This document shows positions 6,411 to 34,649 of a stretch of DNA of 34,649 bases, piece by piece. The position numbers and the translations under genes are program-made. The number at the start of each line of letters is the position of its first letter. Within the stretch, counting starts at the first letter, position 1. Source of the DNA: a virus. The stretch is taken from IMG/VR virus record IMGVR_UViG_3300035121_000028, positions 1 through 34,649 of that record; one strand, written 5' to 3'. Below the pieces are notes generated by a model. The model searched no databases. It saw nothing but the letters and a program-made list of their open reading frames with translations, and was not told where the DNA came from.

Positions 6411-6440
6411 TTGCCTAACTACTACTTAAGATGTTAGTAT
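6411..6440 (+). promoter_or_regulatory. Possible promoter for the packaging/structural block
   Basis: TTGCCT (6411-6416) and TAGTAT (6435-6440) are 18 bases apart, directly after the terminator, where a new promoter is needed. Both boxes are imperfect. If real, its start site supports ATG 6476 over ATG 6431 for the RusA gene. Confidence 0.4.
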
Positions 6441-6475
6441 CAGGAATGAACACGAGTTTAAGTAGGGAAAAAGAG

Positions 6476-6910
6476 ATGGTGCCGCAAAATAGAGTATTAT
6501 TAGTTTCAAAAAAGTATGTGTTAAGTAGAGAGCCAAAGCCATTAGCAAGACCCAGATTCTTTGAGAAGAGAGTATATGATTCGCAGCAGTCATTAAAGTT
6601 GCTTCTTGGCGTGGAATTAAGCAATCAGCATGAAGATTTACCACCTTTTGATGGAATTCTTCACTTTGATATAGATTTTTACTTGCCACTTCCGATAACT
6701 AAATCAACAAAAACAAAATTAGAAAGACAAAAGTATCACATTTATAAGCCAGATCTATCAAACTTAATAAAGCTTATAGAGGATATATGTGTTGATACTG
6801 GAATTATAAAAGATGACTGCAATATAGCTTCTATATATTCAAGAAAATTTTATGGTAGTCCAAGCAGAACAGAATTTGTAATTACACAATTATCTATGAG
6901 AGATCAATAA
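6476..6910 (+). CDS. rusA: RusA-family Holliday junction resolvase
   Basis: 144 aa from ATG 6476 (AGGGAAAAAGAG upstream); in-frame ATGs at 6431 and 6446 lack an RBS and overlap the probable promoter. RusA enzymes are small dimeric endonucleases that cleave four-way DNA junctions. The hallmarks are visible: KPLARPRF near 21-28, H88, then YKPDLSNLIKLIEDI (90-104) with the catalytic-type Asp93, TGIIKDDCNI (108-117) with Asp113 and Asp114, and a Lys at 124 in SRKFYGSP. Phage RusA genes often sit beside terminase genes, where junctions are resolved before packaging of concatemers. The end overlaps the next start by one base. It pairs functionally with the Erf annealing protein at 33103-33726. Confidence 0.9.
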   Translation: MVPQNRVLLVSKKYVLSREPKPLARPRFFEKRVYDSQQSLKLLLGVELSNQHEDLPPFDGILHFDIDFYLPLPITKSTKTKLERQKYHIYKPDLSNLIKLIEDICVDTGIIKDDCNIASIYSRKFYGSPSRTEFVITQLSMRDQ

Positions 6911-33102: not shown

Positions 33103-33726
33103 TTATTTTTTTAGGTAATTATTTATTACCCATTCTAGTTGCTTTTCAGTCATATCTTCTAACGACTTGGTCTTAGTTGATACAAGTATATTATTTAATA
33201 ATCGTCCTGTCGAGTCTGCTGAGTGAATAGATTTCCCTAAAGCAACAGCTCCTTCAGCACTGATCTTTTTAGGTGCAACGTAACCTGATACCTTTTTGTT
33301 GGATACACCATCATCATCTTCTTGCTCTATGCCTAAAATTGACACCAGGGCGTATCTTCTTTGGTAAGTGATACCTGCACCAAGGGACTGTATATCTGAT
33401 GGATCATGGACGATTTTTGAAGCGCTACACATAAACTGTCCAGATTTGTGACATAATATGGTAGTCAGCATCTGAGACCCATCTTTATCAAATGATGGAT
33501 GCTGCGTTACTGCGAGTCCATGCTTTGAAAGAATAGGTAGAATATGATCAAGAACAGTATTAATATCAGCGTAACGATGACGGTGGCCATGATTTTCCTT
33601 CTTAATAGCAGTCATTTCTCCTTGTAATAGGCTTAAAGCGGTGAATAACTGATCTATTTCACAAGACATCGTCATTGAGCTAAGAGGAATTGTGGTAATT
33701 GAAGCAGTTTTTTCAACAAATGACAT
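33103..33726 (-). CDS. erf: Erf-family single-strand annealing protein
   Basis: 207 aa from ATG 33726; TTG 33738 is a possible but less likely start. Erf (from phage P22) binds single-stranded DNA and anneals complementary strands, promoting circularisation and recombination. Family signatures are clear: NHGHRHRYADINTVLDHILP (45-64), then ILSKHGLAVTQ, LTTILCHKSGQFM, and the diagnostic SLGAGITYQRRYALVSILGI (114-133) followed by EQEDDDG. The C-terminal 60 residues are variable, as usual. Together with RusA it gives a minimal recombination set. It is fourth or fifth in the leftward operon, consistent with early expression. Confidence 0.95.
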   Translation of the reverse strand: MSFVEKTASITTIPLSSMTMSCEIDQLFTALSLLQGEMTAIKKENHGHRHRYADINTVLDHILPILSKHGLAVTQHPSFDKDGSQMLTTILCHKSGQFMCSASKIVHDPSDIQSLGAGITYQRRYALVSILGIEQEDDDGVSNKKVSGYVAPKKISAEGAVALGKSIHSADSTGRLLNNILVSTKTKSLEDMTEKQLEWVINNYLKK

Positions 33727-33743
33727 AATAGAATCCAATGTAA

Positions 33744-34118
33744 TTAAAATATTAATGATAATACGCGAGACAACAAGATATATAATATATTAGCAAACGA
33801 ATATAATGCGCCAATAACCAATACAACTTCAGCGTACGCAATGATATCTGTTGCTTGAAGCTTCGGTATCGAATAGAAAAAAGATCTCACTCGGTCTGAT
33901 TCTGATCGTTTATTGACTATAAGATCTTGTATAAACTTGATCCAATGGTCAAGCCGAAACTCCTGAGCCTTAGCTTGTCGCTTAATGGTATCTATTTTAT
34001 CTTGCATATCTTTCAATTTTGCATCTGTTTCAGCAATATATGCTTCAATTTTGCTTTTTAAGGCAGATATTTTTGTTTCATCTGACTTTGGATTATTTTT
34101 TTCTAGTTTTTCTTCCAT
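33744..34118 (-). CDS. Coiled-coil protein with C-terminal membrane anchor, 124 aa
   Basis: RBS AAAAGGAAA. Residues 15-70 form a heptad-like coiled coil (ALKSKIEAYIAETDAKLKDM), followed by a short loop and a hydrophobic tail from about 92 to 124 (VVLVIGALYSFANILYILLS) that could hold one or two membrane helices. Tail-anchored coiled coils occur among phage exclusion and membrane-signalling proteins. The previous gene overlaps its first 16 bases. Function unknown. Confidence 0.78.
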   Translation of the reverse strand: MEEKLEKNNPKSDETKISALKSKIEAYIAETDAKLKDMQDKIDTIKRQAKAQEFRLDHWIKFIQDLIVNKRSESDRVRSFFYSIPKLQATDIIAYAEVVLVIGALYSFANILYILLSRVLSLIF

Positions 34119-34249
34119 TTTATTTCCTTTTTAGTTTTCTCTATCGCTTTTGCTACATCTTTTTGTGTTTGCCTTAGTCTGGTGATGAATTCTTTGAACT
34201 CGCATCGCTTTGAGCAGAATTCATTGAATGAACAGTTTTTACAATTCAT
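34103..34249 (-). CDS. Single FCS-type zinc mini-protein, 48 aa
   Basis: ATG 34249 with RBS AAAGGA six bases upstream; the start overlaps the upstream stop (ATGA) and its end overlaps the next gene by 16 bases. Residues 3-16 are C3-x2-C6-x5-C12-x3-C16 with FCSKRCE, the same FCS-x-[RK]-C core as both fingers of the operon's first gene. The rest is a basic helix (RLRQTQKDVAKAIEKTKKEI). It would be a minimal zinc-bound clip with a helical tail. Very likely related to the larger protein by duplication. Target unknown. Confidence 0.78.
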   Translation of the reverse strand: MNCKNCSFNEFCSKRCEFKEFITRLRQTQKDVAKAIEKTKKEIKWKKN

Positions 34250-34344
34250 GCAAGTCCTTTAGATATTGCGTAAAAGGCACCAAAAACAATCGCTAAAACA
34301 AACAAATCTCTCGCCATGAATAACAAGTTTATTATTTCCATCAT
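34246..34344 (-). CDS. Tiny membrane protein, 32 aa
   Basis: The start (ATGATG at 34344-34339) overlaps the stop of the zinc-finger gene and its stop overlaps the next start, so it is coupled on both sides. It reads MMEIINLLFMARDLFVLAIV then FGAFYAISKGLA: one transmembrane helix, about 14-28. AGGT lies close upstream. Function unknown. Confidence 0.6.
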   Translation of the reverse strand: MMEIINLLFMARDLFVLAIVFGAFYAISKGLA

Positions 34345-34649
34345 TTTTTACCTGCAGAATCTAGTTTGTAAACAATAGTATTAAACACGATGTTGTTATC
34401 AGAGAAATCAGAAAGCTGTACATAATGATCAACGCACTTATCAGAGCAGAAATATTCAACTCTTGTATCAACATAATCATAATCAAGATCTTTATAGCAA
34501 GTTTTGCATGTTATTGTGTTTGTATCAAATGCGTCATCAAAGTCTATTTTAGCTTTTGAAGCAAGTTCTTTATCTTGTTTGTATTGCTCCCATATTCGGT
34601 GAATCATAGATATTGGGGCATTATCATGAGTATTTATCTCACAACGATC
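34341..34649 (-). CDS. Double FCS/YacG-like zinc-finger protein, C-terminal part (start lies at 199 of the joined circle)
   Basis: This is the 3' part of the 126-aa gene whose ATG is at 199. Bases 34523-34649 repeat the start of the window, so residues 25-66 appear in both pieces. The second finger is C72-x2-C75-x16-C92-x3-C96, with FCSDKC, spaced a little wider than the first (C7/C10/C23/C27). After it comes VDHYVQLSDFSDNNIVFNTI, a soluble tail. Two YacG-type fingers in one small protein are unusual: YacG itself has one. An apparent start at 34607 (Met39) is internal. Confidence 0.85.
   Translation of the reverse strand, partial: DRCEINTHDNAPISMIHRIWEQYKQDKELASKAKIDFDDAFDTNTITCKTCYKDLDYDYVDTRVEYFCSDKCVDHYVQLSDFSDNNIVFNTIVYKLDSAGKK
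34523..34649. repeat. Terminal direct repeat, right copy
   Basis: Exact second copy of bases 1-127. Within it the minus-strand zinc-finger gene stays open to the window edge, as expected if this end continues into base 128 of the left end. Confidence 0.95.

Follow-up and report, generated by a model that had tools for sequence, protein, structure and literature searches.

A small phage protein with two putative YacG-like zinc fingers belongs to a family of variable finger number encoded upstream of an Erf-type annealing gene

Of the proteins with solved structures, the gyrase inhibitor YacG of E. coli (PF03884; PDB 1LV3, 4TMA) comes closest to the profile of the fingers analyzed here. YacG is a single finger of about 65 amino acids with the zinc site C-x2-C...PFCS-x-R-C, directly after whose fourth cysteine it carries DLGxW; the position of Trp40 within this motif (DLGEW) was checked. 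The tryptophan was reported to insert into GyrB and the C-terminal region to be essential (review, PMC10886550), and residue 40, printed as F40, was named as a gyrase contact (PMC5507300). Treble-clef fingers with an FCS motif are also known from MYM/TRASH/FCS proteins (PF06467, PF24273; PDB 2DAS, 2W0T), fingers of the same type occur in HNH endonucleases and NinG of phages, and a similar finger is found in a small zinc protein (DUF2116) that phiCbK-like phages of Caulobacter encode. The fold itself is present in phage HNH nucleases, in MYM fingers and in L24e.

In the present study a two-finger gene of a small environmental phage was analyzed in the IMG/VR virus record IMGVR_UViG_3300035121_000028, of which the whole stretch of 34,649 nucleotides is referred to as the window. 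Positions 1-127 are letter-identical with 34523-34649, and removal of one copy of this 127-bp end repeat leaves a circle of 34,522 bp, or the assembly of one; the overlap may be the leftover of a k-mer assembler on a circle, for which a biological repeat is not required. The initial annotation had held that the gene is concealed by the linear cut, and joining the ends bore this out, since the merged repeat completes an open reading frame of 126 amino acids on the minus strand, running from 199 to 1 and from 34522 to 34341. Its 5' part (1-199, ATG at 199) encodes finger 1 (residues 7-27) and then a long predicted helix before the frame resumes at 34522, and its 3' part (34341-34649, minus strand) encodes finger 2 (residues 72-96) and the C-terminal tail, with TGA at 34341-34343. 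The product, which reads MENKNICVSCFSEVRIGYDSPFCSDRC...CKTCYKDLDYDYVDTRVEYFCSDKC...GKK up to the stop, is composed of fingers, linker and tail only.

Both C-x2-C...FCS-x2-C motifs were recovered at the residues first proposed, as C7-x2-C10-x12-C23-x3-C27 in finger 1 and C72-x2-C75-x16-C92-x3-C96 in finger 2. This two-finger pattern is far above chance: it occurred in no open reading frame of 200 genomes simulated with an order-2 Markov model, and shuffling the residues of the 126-aa protein 100,000 times gave two fingers in no case and one finger in 16. Loss of the eight cysteines in homologues had been named as a point that would speak against the assignment; all of them are retained in both full-length homologues, L020 (123 aa, 48% identical) and L046 (102 aa, about 40% identical), which are likewise fused two-finger proteins, and the four ligands are invariant in each of 15 aligned finger rows.

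When residues 1-66 were modelled in alignment with 14 other fingers (pLDDT 81, pTM 0.60), finger 1 was predicted to form an FCS-type treble clef, consisting of a knuckle, a beta-hairpin and a helix starting at the second cysteine pair (residues 25-34), with bridge residues 6 and 12 and a further long helix at 37-62. Finger 2 was modelled in the whole L020 homologue only, at low confidence (pLDDT 56, pTM 0.33), so that the treble clef expected of both fingers is predicted for the first by a fair model and for the second by a low-confidence homologue model. In Foldseek comparisons of residues 1-66 with the PDB, YacG was fitted at 2.4 A over 33 columns with 33% identity and the FCS finger of LMBL2 (2W0T) locally at 2.2 A, both with E above 1; neither residues 1-66 (PDB, viral library) nor the whole L020 homologue model gave a significant match, and the top two entries for residues 1-66 in the viral fold library (BFVD) were HNH endonucleases at a non-significant E of 0.07-0.08.

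A profile of all fingers compared with PDB sequences ranked YacG first (E 7e-6). The likeness comprises the zinc site and a similar loop length, and the match spans cysteine 1 to just past cysteine 4 only. Unlike the single-finger YacG, the phage protein possesses two fingers and a helical linker (four fingers in L055), and in place of DLGxW, which is missing from all 15 finger rows, finger 1 displays a conserved motif of its own after the fourth cysteine, CE...AP...I...Y. The 126-aa protein scored 21.1 bits with PF03884 against a cut-off of 25.5 and 22.5 with the NCBIfam model of YacG (NF001638) against a cut-off of 83. Scores of the relatives likewise fell below the curated cut-offs, with weak PF03884 matches in several members, and a Pfam YacG search of 13 relatives, with E values as high as 1 allowed, found no match. 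Judged by its residues, the phage protein thus shares the finger of YacG and lacks the parts that bind gyrase. Gyrase as the target, as first suggested, is unsupported, because the match ends at cysteine 4, DLGxW with its Trp40 is absent and the scores stay below the cut-offs. For transcription, the other target suggested at first, the results speak neither for nor against. The motif PFCSDRC by itself is insufficient for calling a protein a gyrase inhibitor.

Other finger proteins match in part. HMMs of the MYM/TRASH/FCS group gave weak matches, below cut-offs, to forms of finger 2, and the other domains of these proteins are all missing from the phage protein. HNH endonucleases, some of which are encoded by relatives of this phage, contain a nuclease domain, and one HNH protein bearing the same finger type is strongly basic (pI 9.7), whereas the fused two-finger proteins are acidic (pI 4.6-5.1) and a search of the 126-aa protein for a Pfam HNH catalytic domain was negative; PHROG matches to HNH endonucleases were taken to reflect the shared finger and not the identity of the protein. 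The DUF2116 protein (tblastn E 3e-3 over 60%; rank 21 in BFVD) belongs to a different phage group and is about 30-35% identical over the matched part only. The finger protein matches phages of Caulobacter and Enterococcus weakly and over part of its length, and the L046 homologue has no such match. Among the relatives, HNH endonucleases with tandem FCS-type fingers were also observed in L004 (8521-9258) and L065 (2183-2908); the early fingers may derive from such proteins.

The position of the gene at the head of a tight leftward operon was confirmed. Downstream, where stops and starts mostly overlap, it is joined by an ATGA overlap to the gene of a 32-aa hydrophobic peptide (34246-34344) and this by another to the gene of a 48-aa peptide with C-x2-C-x5-CS-x2-C (34103-34249), followed by a 124-aa protein whose hydrophobic C-terminus includes an IGxLYxF-type motif (33744-34118) and by an Erf-like ssDNA annealing protein of 211 aa (33103-33738; PHROG E 2e-33), the anchor of the synteny test, all on the minus strand. 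The 48-aa peptide perhaps holds another small metal site; as its cysteines are lost in the nearest relative, L020, it was dropped from the family as a third finger. Most finger-bearing relatives have a protein of the 124-aa type at the same position: with a conserved IGxLYGF-like motif it separates the finger gene from that of Erf in the window as well as in L020, L021, L046, L054 and L055, and none was seen in L063. Elsewhere in the window, 6431-6910 encode a RusA-type Holliday junction resolvase (E 2e-13).

Divergently from the operon, on the plus strand, two helix-turn-helix genes follow at 285-584 (99 aa) and 586-792 (68 aa), with PHROG matches to transcriptional regulators; the HTH_3 score of the 99-aa protein exceeds the cut-off and that of the 68-aa protein lies just under it, and both are probably repressor-type regulators. 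The region in between (200-284) contains the inverted repeat TTGACTT...AAGTCAA around ATCTATGATAATCTATG. The block TTGACTT...TATGATAAT...AAGTCAA is kept upstream of the finger gene in several relatives, a similar one preceding it in L020, L021 and L054 and a less clear one in other relatives. The early-type promoter claimed initially is borne out by this conserved block in part only, since a sigma-70 scan scored a rightward promoter-like site at 225-252 (10/12) and no leftward one in the block, so that the leftward promoter is no canonical sigma-70 match. Early expression of the finger gene is thus deduced from its position. Inside one inverted repeat the conserved leftward block overlaps with this rightward site, an arrangement that would suit a switch.

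Relatives were reached through the portal protein, which has at least 593 relatives in viral contigs; peptide-pattern scans with the 126-aa protein and with its Erf found none, and scans with the finger alignments gave nothing beyond the known close homologue. The fingers behave as modules, which related phages carry at this locus singly, as two in separate genes, as two fused or as four in a chain. Besides the fused forms in L020 and L046, two adjacent genes carry the two fingers in L021 and L054, a single 272-aa protein in L055 has four, the last two of which match fingers 1 and 2, L063 has finger 1 alone, and L078 has a single, more doubtful one (FCCKKC). Among 27 distinct Erf loci (L021 contributes two rows), fingers preceded the annealing gene in 8, always on the same strand, and were absent from the remaining 19, which makes the finger gene accessory in the wider phage group. 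In some relatives short unrelated genes occupy its place. The portal tree, from which L078 was left out, unites fused, split and four-finger forms in one eight-row clade (support 99/97), which includes L001 and L003, partial contigs in which no such finger was detected; L063 falls outside. Within the clade fused and split forms are interleaved, which suggests that fission or fusion happened more than once. The libraries searched yielded no description of this finger family, whose members, fused or split and with one, two or four fingers, occupy a fixed early locus in a widespread phage group.

With regard to function, we favour, at somewhat below an even chance, a lineage-specific, zinc-structured protein-protein adaptor, first in its operon and altering a host or phage complex. 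It would be a new kind of protein-binding adaptor in phages and not a gyrase inhibitor copied from a host. Two FCS-type treble-clef fingers joined by a helical linker would sit in a small acidic protein, one zinc ion per finger would give a stiff surface, and the adaptor, if made early, might contact a host or phage protein complex for host takeover or regulation. For acidic zinc-finger proteins protein binding is likelier than nonspecific DNA binding; the low pI of the fused proteins makes the latter unlikely here, and it is on this acidity together with the general likelihood of protein binding that the early adaptor is favoured, although acidity is compatible with specific binding of DNA or RNA. 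A sequence-specific nucleic-acid-binding regulator, for instance of the early operon, could draw on the frequency of FCS fingers in phage HNH nucleases (PHROG matches, viral fold matches), on the adjoining regulatory region and on a first-gene place reminiscent of lambda N; the gap in pI to the basic HNH finger protein counts against it, and we consider it rather unlikely.

A little more credit, while still on the unlikely side, is given to a protein that assists the recombination module of Erf, its fingers loading or tethering the annealing protein, regulating it, or inhibiting a host nuclease, in a way comparable to that in which the Abc proteins of P22 serve Erf. The constant position upstream of Erf on one strand and the overlap of the single-finger gene of L063 with the erf start point in this direction, but the 19 Erf loci free of fingers imply that Erf does not need the finger protein, and the common position may reflect just one early operon. 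The patchy distribution and varying finger number, the short unrelated genes that relatives have there instead and the neighbouring 124-aa protein with its hydrophobic C-terminus would fit an accessory locus for counter-defence or superinfection control, with fingers binding a defence protein, which we hold to be improbable. That the phage encodes a YacG-type inhibitor of gyrase is more improbable still: to the first rank of YacG and the weak PF03884 matches are opposed the confinement of the match to the zinc site, the sub-threshold scores of every member and the lack of DLGxW, residue 40 and the C-terminal region being the reported contacts. Most speculative, and with very little probability, is an early-protein family that gains, splits and fuses FCS fingers, each binding a different host protein, possibly gyrase away from the site of YacG, in phages of the obligate intracellular Chlamydiota, in which just 1 of 116 sampled genomes had a YacG match.

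The host may belong to the Chlamydiota or to the Gammaproteobacteria. Three of five portal relatives in genome collections were in Chlamydiota MAGs and the nearest in a Methylococcaceae MAG, and the Methylococcaceae-binned contig is the only one of them in the window's own portal-tree clade. Portal matches occurred in 9 of 234 Chlamydiota genomes versus 1 of 301 genomes of the order of the Methylococcaceae MAG (Fisher p 0.006), a guide only, both groups having been picked for already holding a match. Lengths read for matching contigs ranged from 14 to 41 kb, with the longer ones as large as a phage genome; as none of these was a long host contig, mis-binning is possible. If the binning is right, some members of the phage group infect Chlamydiota; literature searches for a tailed phage of these bacteria brought up nothing pertinent. 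Should the finger protein bind a host complex, it could serve directly to probe host takeover in possibly hard-to-grow bacteria. The tailed-phage portal relatives from the 9 Chlamydiota genomes (L042, L043, L044, L132-L141) lie on phage-sized or shorter contigs.
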